Source: Poseidonibacter parvus
GTDB taxonomy: Bacteria > Campylobacterota > Campylobacteria > Campylobacterales > Arcobacteraceae
Direction of reading: 5' to 3'
DNA length: 64,000 bases
NCBI RefSeq assembly: GCF_001956695.1
Contig: NZ_CP019070.1
Location: 1,922,001 to 1,986,000, forward strand
Shown here one piece after another: positions 853 through 14,262 of the stretch (position 1 is the stretch's first letter; the number at the start of each line of letters is the position of its first letter). Under the pieces are notes generated by a model. That model was not told where the DNA came from. It did no database searches and worked only from the letters and a program-made list of their open reading frames with translations. Both the position numbers and the translations under genes were made by a program.

Positions 853-2091
853 TTATTCTTTTACAGCTTGTGGTAGTATTAGATTTAATAAAATTCCAAC
901 AATTGCACCAAGTCCAATTCCAGAAAAAGGTACTCCACCAAAGTTAAATGTCATTCCACCAATTGAAAATACTAAAATCATAGAAACAATAATCATATTT
1001 CTAGGACAAGTAAAATCAGTATTTGCTTTGATAAGTGTTGCTATACCTAAAGTTGCGATAATACCAAATAACAATAACATAATTCCACCCATTACAGGAG
1101 TTGGAATTGTTGATAATAAAGCACCAATTTTTCCTACAAAAGCTAAGGCAATTGCAAAAATTGCAGCCCAAGTCATAATTGCAGGATTATATGCTTTTGT
1201 AATAGTAACAGCACCTGTTACTTCAGAATAAGTAGTATTAGGAGGACCACCAAATAAAGCAGCTACTGAAGTAGCAAGACCATCACCTAATAATGTATTT
1301 TTTAAACCTGGCTTTTTTAAATAATCTTCTTTAGTAACATTTGAAATTGCTAACATATCACCAATATGTTCAATTGCAGGGGCAATTGCAATTGGCAAAA
1401 TAAAAATTATTGCTTGCCAGTTAAATTCAGGTGTAGTAAAATTAGGAATACTGAACCAAGCAGCTTGACCAACTGATGTAAAGTCAACTATTCCATAAAT
1501 TAAAGCAAGAATATATCCAATTATAATACCAGCTAATATAGGAATTAACTTAAACATTCCCTTACCTAATAAAGAGAAAAACACAGTTACAAGTAAGGCT
1601 ATCATTGAGATAACAATTGCAGTTTCAAACGGTACTAACACAATTGACCCATCACCTGTTTTTCCCATTGCCAAATTAACTGCAACAGGTGAAAGAATTA
1701 AACCAATTGACATAATAACAGGTCCAACTACAACTGCTGGTAATAATTTGTGAATAAAATTATCTCCTTTTAATCTAATAAGCATACTTAAAACTACATA
1801 CAATAACCCAGCAGCTACAAGCCCAGACATAGTTGCTGCAATTCCCCATGTTTGAACACCATAAGAAATTGGAGCTATAAAAGCAAATGAAGAAGCTAAA
1901 AATATTGGAGGTACCGCACCTCTATTTACAAATTGGAAAACTAAAGTTCCAATTCCTGCTGTAAAAAGTGCAACACTTGGATCAAGTCCTGTTAAAATTG
2001 GCACTAAAACAAGTGCACCAAAAGCTACAAATAAAAATTGTAAACCTAAAATAGAGTCTTTTGCTCTAAAATTGTAATCTGTGGGTTTCAT
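853..2091 (-). CDS. uraA: uracil permease (NCS2 family)
   Basis: This is an inner-membrane uracil:H+ symporter of the nucleobase/cation symporter-2 family, 412 aa as usual for UraA. The sequence is strongly hydrophobic with the expected series of transmembrane segments. The two substrate-binding signatures are present: IEHIGD with Glu241, and GGPPNTTYSEVTG with Glu290. These are the same residue numbers as the uracil-contacting glutamates known in E. coli UraA. It is divergently transcribed from upp, whose product converts imported uracil to UMP, so the pair forms a uracil salvage unit. A hairpin follows the stop codon. Specificity for uracil over xanthine rests on these motifs and on the neighbour. 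Confidence 0.93.
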   Translation of the reverse strand: MKPTDYNFRAKDSILGLQFLFVAFGALVLVPILTGLDPSVALFTAGIGTLVFQFVNRGAVPPIFLASSFAFIAPISYGVQTWGIAATMSGLVAAGLLYVVLSMLIRLKGDNFIHKLLPAVVVGPVIMSIGLILSPVAVNLAMGKTGDGSIVLVPFETAIVISMIALLVTVFFSLLGKGMFKLIPILAGIIIGYILALIYGIVDFTSVGQAAWFSIPNFTTPEFNWQAIIFILPIAIAPAIEHIGDMLAISNVTKEDYLKKPGLKNTLLGDGLATSVAALFGGPPNTTYSEVTGAVTITKAYNPAIMTWAAIFAIALAFVGKIGALLSTIPTPVMGGIMLLLFGIIATLGIATLIKANTDFTCPRNMIIVSMILVFSIGGMTFNFGGVPFSGIGLGAIVGILLNLILPQAVKE

Positions 2092-2108
2092 ATTACCTCT
2101 TGTGTTTT

Positions 2109-2134
2109 GATATTTTGTATCATATCGAAATATC
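2109..2134. promoter_or_regulatory. inverted repeat in the uraA/upp divergent promoter region
   Basis: GATATTT at 2109-2115 and AAATATC at 2128-2134 form a perfect 7-bp inverted repeat with a 12-bp centre. It sits just upstream of uraA and between it and upp. It could be an operator for pyrimidine-dependent control, but in DNA this A/T-rich it could be chance. Confidence 0.3.
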
Positions 2135-2157
2135 AGTTAATTAAAATTAAATTAATG

Positions 2158-2163
2158 TATAAT
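2158..2163 (+). promoter_or_regulatory. candidate -10 element for upp
   Basis: A consensus TATAAT lies about 80 bp upstream of the upp start within a periodic A/T-rich stretch, as in Campylobacterota sigma70 promoters, which often lack a clear -35. There is no other evidence for this site. Confidence 0.35.
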
Positions 2164-2243
2164 TTATAAGTAATTTTTTAGTAATATATAAGCTTTAAAA
2201 TTAAAGTAATTTTTAAACTTATAAACCAATAATAGGAATTAAA

Positions 2244-2864
2244 ATGTATAAAGAAAGTACAAATGTTGTTGTAAAACATCTTGTAAATAGATTAAGAGAT
2301 GTAAGAACAACATCAAATGAGTTTAGACTAACTATTGAAGAAATATCAAGAGTAGTAGCCTGCGAGGCACTAAATGACTTTGAAACAGTAAGCCAAAATA
2401 TTAATACATGGCAAGGTTCTTTAGATGTAGAAATGATTGAAGTACAAAAATTAGTACTTGTTCCTATTTTAAGAGCAGGTGAACCAATGCTTACAGGTAT
2501 TTTAAAAACTCTTCCTTATGCAAAAAGTGGTTTTTTAGCAATGAAAAGAGATGAAGAAACATCTTTAAGTAAACTTTTTTATGAAAATATTCCTAGTTTA
2601 GAAGGAAGAACTGTTTTACTACTAGACCCTATGATTGCAACCGGAGGTTCTTTAATTGATGGAATTGATTATTTAAAAACTAAAAATCCTAAAAGAATTA
2701 TTTGTCTAAATGTTTTAGGTTCACCTTTTGGAGTTCAGAAAGTACAAGAAGCACACCCTGATGTAGATATTTTCATAGCTCAAATTGATGAAAGATTAGA
2801 TGAAAACAACTATATAAGACCAGGTCTTGGAGATGCAGGTGACCGAGCTTTTAATACAAACTAA
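2244..2864 (+). CDS. upp: uracil phosphoribosyltransferase
   Basis: This cytoplasmic enzyme makes UMP from uracil and PRPP in pyrimidine salvage. The 206-aa length matches the family. Key motifs are the PRPP-binding loop LLLDPMIATGGSLIDG (about residues 129-144), the early VPILRAGEPM segment, and a C-terminal uracil-binding stretch IRPGLGDAGDRAFNT. The ATG at 2244 is preceded by AATAGGAATTAAA, which contains a Shine-Dalgarno-like AGGA. It is divergent from the uracil permease gene, so the two probably answer to the same pyrimidine signal. It converges with the epimerase-like gene at 2883. Confidence 0.96.
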   Translation: MYKESTNVVVKHLVNRLRDVRTTSNEFRLTIEEISRVVACEALNDFETVSQNINTWQGSLDVEMIEVQKLVLVPILRAGEPMLTGILKTLPYAKSGFLAMKRDEETSLSKLFYENIPSLEGRTVLLLDPMIATGGSLIDGIDYLKTKNPKRIICLNVLGSPFGVQKVQEAHPDVDIFIAQIDERLDENNYIRPGLGDAGDRAFNTN

Positions 2865-2882
2865 AATTTTAAATTATTAGTG

Positions 2883-3644
2883 TTAATACTCAAAGGGGTT
2901 TGGATATTTATATTCAAATCCTAAACTTGAAATTTTACTTCCATCTATAATTCTATTTTTAATACCTTTTTCATTCTTGAAAATCGATTCTTTAAATCCA
3001 TGTTTCTGTGCATTATGTAAGTATATTTCTTCTTTTGTTGGATGTTCTTTTGAACACAAATTAAAAATTCCATTTATATTATTATTGATTACAAAATAAG
3101 TTGCACTAATTACATCATCTCTATGTATGTAATTTATTTTTATATCCTTATCATTTACTATTTTTGAAGAAGAACGCTTACCTGCAACTCTGTTATAACC
3201 CATAAGTCCAGAGCATCTAAAAATGACATCAGTTTTATCTTTTATTAAAAGTTCAGATTCATAAACTTTAGGGGACTTTTCATTTGATAATTTTGAATCT
3301 TCTTTATAAATTCCATCTTCACTTGCATAAATAGATGTAGAGCTTACAAATATAATCTTTTTTATATCTTTTATTTTATTATGAGAATAAATTTTTTCTA
3401 AGAATGATGAATAATCTTCAAACTTTGAAGGTGGAAAATTTATAAATAGATAATCAGTTTGTAATAATTTATCTAAAAAACTCAAATTTTGCTCATTTAA
3501 TAAAAAAACATCTAAACCTAGCTCTTGAAACTTTTGTCTATTTTTTTCATCTTTAATTGATACTTTTACATTGTAGTTTTTTTTTAATTCACAAGCAAGT
3601 GGAAGACCTAACCACCCTGCTCCTAATATTGTAAATGTTTTCAT
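2883..3644 (-). CDS. NAD(P)-binding sugar epimerase/dehydratase-like protein (extended SDR)
   Basis: This 253-aa Rossmann-fold protein is related to NAD-dependent epimerases (YeeZ-like atypical SDRs). The N-terminus carries the dinucleotide-binding signature ILGAGWLGLPLA (about residues 6-17), and a central FVSSTSIYASEDG segment matches the SDR catalytic strand. The usual YxxxK is not obvious; a Tyr-rich stretch KSPKVYESELL lies near the expected place, which suggests an atypical SDR. Its start overlaps the stop of the channel gene by 4 bp, so the two are translationally coupled. The substrate is unknown. The family is fairly sure; no specific reaction can be given. Confidence 0.7.
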   Translation of the reverse strand: MKTFTILGAGWLGLPLACELKKNYNVKVSIKDEKNRQKFQELGLDVFLLNEQNLSFLDKLLQTDYLFINFPPSKFEDYSSFLEKIYSHNKIKDIKKIIFVSSTSIYASEDGIYKEDSKLSNEKSPKVYESELLIKDKTDVIFRCSGLMGYNRVAGKRSSSKIVNDKDIKINYIHRDDVISATYFVINNNINGIFNLCSKEHPTKEEIYLHNAQKHGFKESIFKNEKGIKNRIIDGSKISSLGFEYKYPNPFEY

Positions 3645-4444
3645 TTATCTTTCTCTTTTAATTCTTGAACTTCTGTTCTTAAAGATTTTATTTCTTCAAG
3701 CAGTATATCTAATTTTAAACTATCTTCATGAATCTCTTTTTTCATCTCTTCTTCTTGAAGTTTTTGCATTTCACCAATAATAACAGCAACAAATAAATTG
3801 AAAAATACAAAAGCTGCAATAATTACAAAAGAAACAAAATAAACCCAAGCCCATGGATAAACTTCCATAGCCTCATACATTACATCTGTCCAATCTTCAA
3901 AAGTTAGAACTCTAAATAATGTAAGCATTGAAATTAAGAAATCTTTCCAAAGTCCTGAAGGCAAGTCTACAAAGAAAAAACTTCCAATAATTGCATAAAT
4001 ATAGAAGATTATAAATAATAAAATTACAATATCAATAATAGAAGGAATTGCTTTAATAAGCATATCAATAATTGCTTTTAATTCTGGACGTGCAGTGAAT
4101 AATCTTAAGATTCTAAATACTCTCATAAGTCTTGCAATTGCAGCGAAACTTGATGACTCTAAAGGTAAAAGAGTAATTACAACAATAACAAAATCAAAAA
4201 TATTCCAACCTGATTTAAAAAAGTTTGCAAACTTTTTCTCAGCAACCATTTTAATTGCTAATTCAAAAACAAAATATATAGTTACAAAATAATCAGCAAC
4301 TTTTAAAAATAAATTATAATTAGTCTCAACTTCGTCTAAAGTCTTAAAACCTAAAATACAAGCGTAAGCAATAATAATGAAAGTTGTTAAATTAGAAAAC
4401 CACTTTGAATCTCTAACTTCTTCAATTTTTTGCATTGTAGTCAT
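3641..4444 (-). CDS. voltage-gated-type cation channel (bacterial Nav/Cav ion transporter family)
   Basis: This 267-aa six-helix channel subunit would act as a homotetramer in the inner membrane. S1-S4 form a voltage sensor. S4 has arginines every third residue (Arg105, 108, 111, 114, with Arg119 beyond). S5 and S6 flank the pore loop VLTFEDWTDVMYEAM. After S6 comes a charged C-terminal helix (about 223-266, heptad-like LxxEIxxLRxEVxELK) resembling the coiled coil of bacterial Nav channels. The filter T181-F-E183-D184-W185-T186-D187 differs from the Na+ filter TLESWSM of NavAb. It resembles the acidic, Ca2+-selective engineered CavAb filter (DDWSD). Fold and family are clear; ion selectivity is inference. 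Confidence 0.88.
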   Translation of the reverse strand: MTTMQKIEEVRDSKWFSNLTTFIIIAYACILGFKTLDEVETNYNLFLKVADYFVTIYFVFELAIKMVAEKKFANFFKSGWNIFDFVIVVITLLPLESSSFAAIARLMRVFRILRLFTARPELKAIIDMLIKAIPSIIDIVILLFIIFYIYAIIGSFFFVDLPSGLWKDFLISMLTLFRVLTFEDWTDVMYEAMEVYPWAWVYFVSFVIIAAFVFFNLFVAVIIGEMQKLQEEEMKKEIHEDSLKLDILLEEIKSLRTEVQELKEKDK

Positions 4445-4448
4445 TTAA

Positions 4449-4835
4449 TTATTCCTTTAATAAGCTATAAGTTACTACTAACCAAGCAATAATTAATAAA
4501 GTTCCACCAATTGGAGTGATAGCTCCAAGTATTGGTAAATTTAAAACAACCAAAGCGTATAATGAAAAAGAAAATATTATCATTCCAATAATTATAAGCC
4601 ATGCACTTAGTCTTAATTTTTTTGAATCAGGTTTAAAATTAATTAAAAAAGCCACTATAAAAAGACCAAGAGTATTATAAAATTGATACTGTATTCCAGT
4701 ATTGTATATTTTTAACATTGAGTCTGTTACTATTGATTTAAGTCCATGTGCACCAAAAGCACCAAGAGCAATTGAAAGAGCCATCATAAAAGAGGCAATT
4801 GCTAGAAATTTTTTACTGTTATTATTAAGTGTCAT
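4449..4835 (-). CDS. DUF423 family small membrane protein
   Basis: This 128-aa integral membrane protein has four predicted transmembrane segments and the family signature LGAFGAHGLK near the N-terminus (about residues 24-33), followed by YQFYNTLGLF. DUF423 (YgdD-type) proteins are widespread but their function is unknown. It lies 4 bp upstream of the cation channel gene on the same strand and is probably co-transcribed with it. No catalytic residues can be identified. Confidence 0.85.
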   Translation of the reverse strand: MTLNNNSKKFLAIASFMMALSIALGAFGAHGLKSIVTDSMLKIYNTGIQYQFYNTLGLFIVAFLINFKPDSKKLRLSAWLIIIGMIIFSFSLYALVVLNLPILGAITPIGGTLLIIAWLVVTYSLLKE

Positions 4836-4892
4836 AATACTTCCAAAAGTTAATTTTTGCGAAGTATATCAAAAAAAAGTTAATAAAATATT

Positions 4893-5174
4893 TTATTTAC
4901 TTTTAGATATTTTTTCTAAGGACTTATCTTTTGAGAATCCTGCGCCTTTTTTTTCTTTTTTGACTAATTCTAAATCATTAATTAATGTTTTATAGTCAAT
5001 TCCTTCTTTGTTCATATAGGCAAAACAAGCAGCGATAGATGCAATTGCATTAGGAACTTCTTTCTTCTTTTTATAAGCTTGAATATTTTTTTCACTAACT
5101 TTAATTAATGCTGTAAATTTAGGAATTGTAAGTTCTGCGTCCAAAAGTAATTTTTTAAAATCTATAAAAGTCAT
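4893..5174 (-). CDS. conserved small hypothetical protein, helix-turn-helix-like
   Basis: This 93-aa basic protein begins MTFIDFKKLLLDAELTIPKFTALIKVSEKNIQAYKKKKEVPNA without the full motif being certain. The spacing of LTIPKFTALIKVSEKNIQAY resembles a Cro-like helix-turn-helix, with the C-terminus rich in Lys (EKKGAGFSKDK). Such short proteins recur in Campylobacterota next to housekeeping genes. A DNA-binding role is only suggested. The coding potential, ATG start and conserved-looking sequence make it a likely real gene. It is followed closely by the DUF423 gene on the same strand. Confidence 0.6.
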   Translation of the reverse strand: MTFIDFKKLLLDAELTIPKFTALIKVSEKNIQAYKKKKEVPNAIASIAACFAYMNKEGIDYKTLINDLELVKKEKKGAGFSKDKSLEKISKSK

Positions 5175-5272
5175 TTGTTTTCCAGTAGTTTTTTTAAATT
5201 ATACAAAGTAGAATGTAAAAGTTAGGTAAAAGTTCAAGATTTATATATAAAAGTAATATTTTATGTAGTTCT

Positions 5273-5294
5273 GAATCCTAATAAATTAGGATTC
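5273..5294. terminator. hairpin downstream of the purine phosphoribosyltransferase gene
   Basis: A perfect 10-bp stem (5273-5282 with 5285-5294) with a 2-base loop directly follows the stop codon at 5300. A T-rich tail exists only on the plus side, so minus-strand termination would be weak. It may instead stabilise the 3-prime end of the mRNA. Confidence 0.4.
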
Positions 5295-5299
5295 AATTT

Positions 5300-5746
5300 T
5301 TATTTTACATCAACTTCCCAGAAGAAATCAATCCATTGAGTCGCTTCTCTTACCGTATAGTCAGGTTGTAAAACTGCAGTTTTTTTATAAAATAGCGTTG
5401 CTAATTTGAATTCTACATTTGGAAACTTTTCTTTTAATATTTTTAAAATTTGTTCCATTGTTTCACCTGAATCAACAATATCATCAATAATTAAAACCCT
5501 TTTTGCATGTGATACATCAGGAATATTAAAAATATTGAATGTATCAAGCTTTAAATCACCTTCATAATGAACAGAATTTAAGCTATATAAATTTCTCATA
5601 TCCATTGCTTGTGCCATTAAATGAGCTAATGTCAAACCACCTCTTGCAACTGCAAGTAATACATCTGGCTCATAATCTCTACAAGAGTTTACTAATTTTT
5701 GTGTATCTTCTTTAAATAAATCATAACTATAATAAAGTTTTTCCAA
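5300..5746 (-). CDS. purine phosphoribosyltransferase (hypoxanthine/xanthine/guanine type)
   Basis: This cytoplasmic type I phosphoribosyltransferase of 148 aa transfers phosphoribosyl from PRPP to a purine base for salvage. The PRPP loop VLIIDDIVDSGETM (about residues 85-98) has the two adjacent acidic residues of the family, and ARGGLTLAHLMAQ (about 34-46) is the flexible-loop side. The neighbouring gene, 9 bp downstream of the permease stop, is an NCS2 purine permease on the same strand, so import and phosphoribosylation are coupled. Length and motifs resemble Gpt and other short Campylobacterota purine PRTs. The preferred base (xanthine, guanine or hypoxanthine) cannot be decided. Confidence 0.85.
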   Translation of the reverse strand: MEKLYYSYDLFKEDTQKLVNSCRDYEPDVLLAVARGGLTLAHLMAQAMDMRNLYSLNSVHYEGDLKLDTFNIFNIPDVSHAKRVLIIDDIVDSGETMEQILKILKEKFPNVEFKLATLFYKKTAVLQPDYTVREATQWIDFFWEVDVK

Positions 5747-5755
5747 AATTTTTCC

Positions 5756-7048
5756 TTATAAAATAAATGCTAATGCACTAATAAATGTTATTACTAAAAT
5801 ACCAATATTCAAATCACTAAACTCTTTTTTAGCTAATTTTATAATTGTATAAACTAAAAAACCTGCTGCTATACCATTTGTAATAGAGAAAGTTAATGGC
5901 ATTAAAATTACAATTAAAAATGCTCCTGCACTTGTTGCTAAATCAGAATCTTCAAAATTTATTTTTCCAAGTTCTGTAAACATTAAAACACCAACAACAA
6001 CTAAAACAGGATAAATTGCATTTGCAGGAATTGCTTTAAATAAAGGAAGCATAAATAAAGTAGTTACAAAAAACATTGCTGTAAATACAGCAGTTAAACC
6101 AGTACGTCCACCCTCTTCAACTCCTGATGCACTTTCAATAAATGCTGTTGTAGTTGAAACTCCAACTAATGCACCTGCAGTTGTTGCAATTGCATCTGCT
6201 TCAAGCGTTTTTTGTAATGACTTATCATTTTTGTTATTTTCTTGAAATAACTTAGCTCTAGTCCCTACTCCTGTTAAAGTACCTAAAGTATCAAACATAT
6301 CAGTAATTAAGAATGTAATAATCACAGGTAATAAAGATAAAGTAAAAGCACTTAAAATATCAAGTTCCATAAAAATAGGTGAAATTGAAGCAGGCGTAGA
6401 GATGACACTTTGAGGTAATGCACCAAGACCTAGAATCCAAGCTACAATTGATGTAATAGCAATTGAAAGAATAAATGCACCTTTAATTCTATAAGCATAA
6501 AAAGAAAATGCAAGAATTAAACCTAAAACTCCAAGTAGTACATTTGAATTTGAAAAATCACCTAAGGTAACTAATGTAGCTTCACTTGCACTAATCATTC
6601 CCATTTGCTTTAAACCAATAAAAGCAATAAAAGAACCAATACCCGCAGAAATTGCTCGTCTTAAACTCATAGGAATTGATGTCATAATCCAAACTCTAAA
6701 ATTTGTTAAAGATAAAATTACAAATAATATACCAGATAAAAATACAATACCAAGTGCTGTTTCCCAAGGAATTTTCATACCTAAAACTAAGCCATAAGAA
6801 AAGTATGCATTAAGTCCCATACCAACACTCATTGCAATTGGAGTGTTTGACCAAAGTCCTGAGAAAAGTGTTGCTAAAATAGTAATAATAGCAGTTGCAG
6901 TTACAACTGCATCCATAGGTAAACCTGCATCTGCAAGTATAAAACCATTAACTGGAACAATATACATCATTGTTAAAAAAGTAGTAAACCCAGCTGAAAG
7001 CTCAGTTTTAACTGTTGTGTTATGCTCTTTTAATTTAAAGAAGTTCAC
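5756..7048 (-). CDS. purine permease, AzgA-like NCS2 family
   Basis: This 430-aa multi-pass inner-membrane transporter of the AzgA/GhxP/PbuG branch of NCS2 takes up hypoxanthine, guanine or adenine. Diagnostic segments are FTTFLTMMYIVPVN near the N-terminus (about residues 22-35), FLITDMFDTLGTLTGVG (about 245-262) and STTTAFIESASGVEEGGRTG (about 298-317). The last contains the substrate-site Glu and Gly residues. It is transcribed first, with the purine phosphoribosyltransferase following 9 bp after, which makes a purine salvage operon. I looked for a purine-type riboswitch in the 205-bp upstream region and did not see one. Confidence 0.9.
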   Translation of the reverse strand: MNFFKLKEHNTTVKTELSAGFTTFLTMMYIVPVNGFILADAGLPMDAVVTATAIITILATLFSGLWSNTPIAMSVGMGLNAYFSYGLVLGMKIPWETALGIVFLSGILFVILSLTNFRVWIMTSIPMSLRRAISAGIGSFIAFIGLKQMGMISASEATLVTLGDFSNSNVLLGVLGLILAFSFYAYRIKGAFILSIAITSIVAWILGLGALPQSVISTPASISPIFMELDILSAFTLSLLPVIITFLITDMFDTLGTLTGVGTRAKLFQENNKNDKSLQKTLEADAIATTAGALVGVSTTTAFIESASGVEEGGRTGLTAVFTAMFFVTTLFMLPLFKAIPANAIYPVLVVVGVLMFTELGKINFEDSDLATSAGAFLIVILMPLTFSITNGIAAGFLVYTIIKLAKKEFSDLNIGILVITFISALAFIL

Positions 7049-10844: not shown

Positions 10845-13757
<2,913 letters not shown>

Positions 13758-14068: not shown

Positions 14069-14144
14069 TGGTGGAGAATAGCGGGATCGAACCGCTGACC
14101 TCCTACGTGCAAGGCAGGCGCTCTCCCAGCTGAGCTAATTCCCC
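14069..14144 (-). tRNA. tRNA-Ala (anticodon TGC)
   Basis: A 76-nt cloverleaf on the minus strand: acceptor GGGGAAT..ATTCTCC with encoded CCA, D-arm TAGCTCAGCTGGGAGAGC, anticodon loop CTTGCACG with TGC, and T-loop TTCGATC. It sits in the 16S-23S spacer after tRNA-Ile, the usual order. Confidence 0.97.
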
Positions 14145-14185
14145 ATCGTAGTATATTAATTATTAAGTTATAGATTATTTAAGAA

Positions 14186-14262
14186 TGGTGGGCCTACCAG
14201 GACTTGAACCTGGGACCTCACGATTATCAGTCGAGCGCTCTAGCCAGCTGAGCTATAGGCCC
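14186..14262 (-). tRNA. tRNA-Ile (anticodon GAT)
   Basis: A 77-nt cloverleaf on the minus strand: acceptor GGGCCTA..TAGGCCC plus encoded CCA, D-arm TAGCTCAGCTGGCTAGAGC, anticodon loop CTGATAA with GAT, and T-loop TTCAAGT. It is the first tRNA after 16S in the rRNA operon spacer. Confidence 0.97.

Follow-up and report, generated by a model that had tools for sequence, protein, structure and literature searches.

An uncharacterised AnclNav ortholog group with an acidic, ancestral-type selectivity filter in Poseidonibacter parvus and its relatives

Near-identical selectivity-filter letters accompany Ca2+ selectivity in NavAb and NaChBac but Ca2+ block in NavPp. NavPp, whose filter is TLEDWTD, prefers Na+ (PCa/PNa 0.308) and shows low-affinity Ca2+ block, and swapping the filter for TLEDWSD or TLEDWAD brought no gain in Ca2+ selectivity or permeability (Shimomura et al. 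2020, PMC7041947). NavAb carrying TLEDWSD and NaChBac carrying TLEDWAD are Ca2+-selective (as cited in PMC7041947). CavMr (TLEGWVD) has a PCa/PNa above 200, which becomes 13.8 when the channel carries the NavPp filter and 7.7 when D replaces G at position 4 (CavMr-G4D), and Ca2+ selectivity in AnclNavs is attributed to a glycine, not an aspartate, at this position (PMC7041947). The same authors give TLEDWTD of NavPp as the reconstructed ancestral BacNav filter, and obtained no current in Sf9 cells from the AnclNavs of Halomonas elongata and Teredinibacter turnerae, which have NavPp-like filters (PMC7041947). At position 2, F is reported in some BacNavs and AnclNavs, and the NavAb L176F substitution at this position produces no Ca2+ block of its own (PMC10349818). 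A classification based on a position-4 'beacon' predicts either Ca2+ selectivity or Ca2+ block when this residue is Asp (PMC10120453).

The window, a stretch of 64,000 nucleotides from Poseidonibacter parvus, contains a gene for a channel of this kind. A sequence-only reading had located a bacterial voltage-gated channel at 3641-4444, and both the open reading frame and an Ion_trans match of the encoded protein (PF00520, E 1.7e-45) agree with these coordinates. The strand had been left unstated; the frame reads on the minus strand, and the plus strand of this interval contains many stops.

3641-4444, minus strand: gene for a voltage-gated cation channel of the AnclNav type, 267 aa (open reading frame, Pfam, AlphaFold2 model and fold matches)
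4103-4132, minus strand: S4 arginines R105, R108, R111 and R114 (invariant alignment columns)
3884-3904, minus strand: codons of the selectivity filter TFEDWTD, residues 181-187 (computed from residue positions)
3644-3748, minus strand: C-terminal end of the S6 helix, residues ~233-267 (AlphaFold2 helix 199-266)

The AlphaFold2 model of the channel monomer, built from a 44-row alignment (pLDDT 92.8), consists of helices S1-S6 with two pore helices (residues 169-180 and 185-195) and an S6 that forms a single unbroken helix from 199 to 266, the tail of which is probably coiled-coil-like, resembling other BacNavs. The closest solved folds are the NavAb and CavAb crystals and NaChBac, with Z scores of 19-20 and rmsd values mostly of 3.1-3.5 across ~220 residues. 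The S4 arginine ladder is complete, as had been claimed: R105, R108, R111 and R114 align with NavAb R1-R4 and are invariant in a 14-channel alignment, as are the countercharges E61 in S2 and D84 in S3. A six-helix Ion_trans protein with a P1-filter-P2 pore, a glutamate (E183) at filter position 3, an S4 arginine at every third residue and countercharges in S2 (Glu) and S3 (Asp) belongs to the BacNav superfamily. The top PDB sequence matches were to human Cav3, and we did not count them as evidence of a Cav identity because repeated matching inflates the scores of four-domain chains.

The filter reads T181 F182 E183 D184 W185 T186 D187, with E183, D184 and D187 numbered as in the sequence-only reading, which equated these acids with the NavAb E, S and M sites and with the three changes that produce CavAb. 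The acids are present, but only two of the three substitutions (S178D and M181D) are matched, since E183 corresponds to NavAb E177, where CavAb has D. Even the match at M181 is alignment-dependent. The stretch running from the filter Trp as far as the conserved Asn of S6 counts 31 residues in the window channel versus 32 in NavAb, NaChBac and NavMs, and in the MAFFT alignment of 14 channels the missing residue falls exactly at the NavAb M181 column, so D187 need not occupy the CavAb M181D site. A CavAb-type channel would combine DDWSD with NavAb spacing; here we find EDWTD and 31 rather than 32 residues. Asp184 takes the place of the glycine that marks CavMr at position 4, and TFEDWTD conforms to the acid-rich TLE(D/G)WxD type of the AnclNavs, with F for L at position 2. 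The P-loop run WTDVMY looks like eukaryotic Cav repeats.

We then turned to a careful maximum-likelihood tree computed without the seven filter columns, in which the CavMr side is represented by L166, the ortholog from the sister species Meiothermus rufus, NavPp itself lies outside the sampling, and the NavAb, NaChBac and NavMs references are sequences checked solely by their sensible placement. The tree separates NaChBac, NavAb and NavMs from the window channel, L166 (TLEGWVD) and the TLEDWTD channels (bootstrap 99, SH-aLRT 94), and a single clade of the window and NavAb groups is rejected on a quick tree (p-AU 0.0035). Together, tree and AU test rule out filing the window channel under NavAb/CavAb; judged by sequence, it is a member of the AnclNav ("ancestor-like BacNav") group, with CavMr and NavPp. 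Within that group it sits in a 13-row subclade (support 100/98) with Pseudoalteromonas L056, likewise a TFEDWTD channel, and a small number of MAGs from gamma- and alphaproteobacteria, separate from a CavMr/Myxococcota subclade and from one of Gammaproteobacteria, Chloroflexota and Nitrospirota. The spacing of 31 recurs throughout the window subclade and in the gamma/Chloroflexota subclade, while in the CavMr/Myxococcota subclade an inserted loop extends it to 49-57. The short spacing is not exclusive to AnclNavs, since it is shared by some glycine-filter channels on the NavAb side. Two further sequences are possibly broken copies: L057 (TFEDWTD; Vibrio alfacsensis plasmid pVa1) has a match that is split in two, with the pore half alone giving an open frame, and L040 has an in-frame TAA within the aligned stretch.

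Of the sequence-only reading, the acidic filter and the intact voltage sensor hold up. With the channel in the other clade, its spacing one residue short and its filter nearly that of NavPp, the CavAb analogy fails, and the window channel is no natural counterpart of engineered CavAb. The suggestion that it may pass Ca2+ or mixed cations can be retained as a hedge, though no longer on CavAb-type grounds, and the sequence-only reading is on the whole partly supported.

How common such filters are was assessed by scanning named genomes for the pattern F-x-x-x-T-L-E-[D/E/G]-W-x-D with a CTN leucine. The scan returned at least 118 loci, nearly all of them true channels, and TLEDWTD, spread over many phyla, was the commonest filter (78 of 114 channels among the matches listed). 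Because the search was restricted to TLE[D/E/G]WxD, this commonness holds within acidic filters and not for all BacNavs. A naturally acidic filter of the window type is, at the level of sequence, not unusual. One other channel stands out: L073, on an uncultured Neomegalonema contig (CALDSD010000099.1), has a natural TLEDWAD (WADGIVKP) on the NavAb/NavMs side with NavAb spacing, the very letters that turn NaChBac Ca2+-selective on engineering. As a natural CavAb candidate it is much stronger than the window channel. Acidic filters with NavAb spacing are likewise seen on the NavAb side in L149 and L155 (Mesorhizobium), L095 (Hyphomicrobiaceae) and L058 (a Microvirga plasmid), among which the filters are TLEGWSD, TLEGWTD and TFDDWSG.

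Within the bacterial family of the host, orthologs of the window channel occur in 51 of the 101 genomes sampled (67-100% identity), and they extend to two further families of the order at 71-76% identity. A NavAb-type channel, ~32-41% identical to the window channel, is found in 39 of the 101, and NavAb itself (Arcobacter butzleri) branches among these sequences in the tree, which points to Arcobacteraceae as the family. Both types are present together in 23 genomes, leaving 28 of the 51 with the window type and no NavAb. Our search for a NavAb-type paralog in the window channel's own genome found none; a second Ion_trans gene there carries the K+-type filter TTVGYGD. All window-type loci read carry TFEDWTD, and all NavAb-type loci TLESWSM. 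The filter protein does not vary across 40 window-type loci although its T, E and D codons differ. Relative to the window channel, 95% of amino acids are identical near the pore and 81% in the voltage sensor, and about one-third of the codons for identical residues show synonymous change. Family orthologs and amino-acid conservation despite synonymous change confirm that the gene is real, far beyond chance, and the invariant filter and complete S4 are under purifying selection.

The channel gene is closely flanked on its own strand.

4449-4835, minus strand: gene for a small DUF423 membrane protein, directly upstream of the channel (PF04241, 4.6e-28)
2883-3644, minus strand: NAD-binding (epimerase-like) gene (coordinates and family adjacency)

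The epimerase-like function of the latter is a guess from its N-terminal motif. A gap of 4 nt separates the end of DUF423 from the channel start, and the channel stop is overlapped by 4 nt (ATGA) by the 2883-3644 gene, so that the three genes are probably co-transcribed; the channel and the downstream gene are likely to be translationally coupled. DUF423 adjoins the channel in the tested loci of the family and the three-gene order is kept in most, but this neighbourhood was found neither beside orthologs outside the family nor beside the most divergent orthologs within it. Upstream of DUF423, a 93-aa open reading frame (4893-5174, minus strand) is 79-96% identical in most family loci examined and has no Pfam or NCBIfam match. 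The putative operon lies within a nucleobase-salvage neighbourhood (853-7048) comprising an NCS2 uracil permease, upp, a phosphoribosyltransferase and a second permease-like gene. We considered inferring the ion from these neighbours, but DUF423, the epimerase-like gene and the salvage genes are uninformative in this respect. Elsewhere in the window, adjacent tRNA-Ala and tRNA-Ile genes (14069-14262) resemble an rRNA operon spacer, and a listed open reading frame at 11230-11508 looks like rRNA translated as protein.

What such a channel conducts is best explained, we believe with somewhat better than even confidence, by a cation channel that opens on depolarisation, discriminates weakly between Na+ and Ca2+ and is subject to Ca2+ block. 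We infer that the product is one subunit of a homotetrameric, depolarisation-activated AnclNav channel, in which the S1-S4 sensor would open the S6 gate and Ca2+ would be bound at the mouth by the E183 and D184 rings, together with D187 at the beginning of pore helix 2. The predicted PCa/PNa is roughly 0.1-20, and millimolar Ca2+ would attenuate the Na+ current in a NavPp-like manner rather than impose CavAb-type selectivity. Weak discrimination is expected because the pore scaffold is that of an AnclNav, not NavAb. Transfer from NavPp is nonetheless uncertain, as the loop inserted in the CavMr/Myxococcota subclade is absent from that of the window channel, and we found no recordings in the literature from the window subclade, Pseudoalteromonas L056 included.

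The main rival to a weakly selective channel is a true Cav: a native, highly Ca2+-selective, CavAb-like channel whose three acidic rings would sustain a Ca2+ knock-off queue and exclude Na+. The E, D and D rings are indeed present, WTDVMY is akin to eukaryotic Cav repeats, and two points that favour this reading also count against weak selectivity, namely that these letters, combined with S or A as residue 6 of the filter, yield Ca2+-selective NavAb and NaChBac (cited in PMC7041947) and that the beacon-Asp rule allows it (PMC10120453). We nevertheless regard it as unlikely, given that clade and spacing both differ from NavAb, that E stands at position 3 where CavAb has D, that the near-identical NavPp filter gives block instead, and that Ca2+ selectivity in AnclNavs comes from glycine at position 4 and not from aspartate. 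A broader proposal, which we consider distinctly doubtful, is that the Campylobacterota and marine-proteobacterial subclade, with its short post-filter spacing, beacon Asp and F or L at position 2, constitutes a third native functional class, truly Ca2+-selective through carboxylates instead of the CavMr glycine and used beside NavAb within one cell to separate Ca2+ from Na+ entry.

An essentially Na+-selective channel, standing in for NavAb as the Na+ entry route of its hosts, would fit the Na+ preference of NavPp (PMC7041947), the missing paralog in the channel's own genome and the absence of NavAb from the 28 family genomes. It seems to us improbable, however, since the 23 genomes with both types argue for non-redundant roles and the acids at filter positions 4 and 7 speak for Ca2+ binding. 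The silence of the H. elongata and T. turnerae AnclNavs in Sf9 cells (PMC7041947) speaks against the weakly selective channel and for a channel-like protein with little such conductance of its own, silent or otherwise gated; we give this almost no credence, as that silence may reflect failed expression and the window channel has an invariant filter, a complete S4 and a record of purifying selection.

The window channel represents an uncharacterised AnclNav ortholog group with an ancestral-type filter and is an ordinary member of a described family. An intact native channel with TFEDWTD is available in this clade, in the 23 genomes alongside a NavAb ortholog, which makes the clade a clean test bed for whether scaffold or filter letters determine selectivity, with the one-residue-shorter segment after the filter a candidate for the scaffold's contribution.

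Compared with known systems, the window channel is closest in filter to the Plesiocystis pacifica AnclNav NavPp, differing only at position 2 (F for L) when set against the published filter rather than the full sequence; the Myxococcota relatives of NavPp (L135, L085) have a long post-filter loop that it lacks. CavMr of Meiothermus ruber, compared through L166, lies on the same AnclNav side and shares E at position 3 and D at position 7, but has at position 4 the Gly that determines its Ca2+ selectivity and V at position 6, where the window channel has D and T, and L166 differs further in its 49 residues from Trp to Asn versus 31, its separate subclade and its 28% identity. NavAb and engineered CavAb share the overall fold (Z ~20, rmsd 3.4) and the four S4 arginines, and the bacterial family of the window channel also contains NavAb orthologs, yet NavAb and CavAb belong to the other clade, are 33% identical, carry TLESWSM and TLDDWSD, and are one residue longer after the filter, followed by G-x-x-R-P. 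The Pseudoalteromonas 'ion transporter' L056, at 41% identity, has the same TFEDWTD and the same subclade (100/98).
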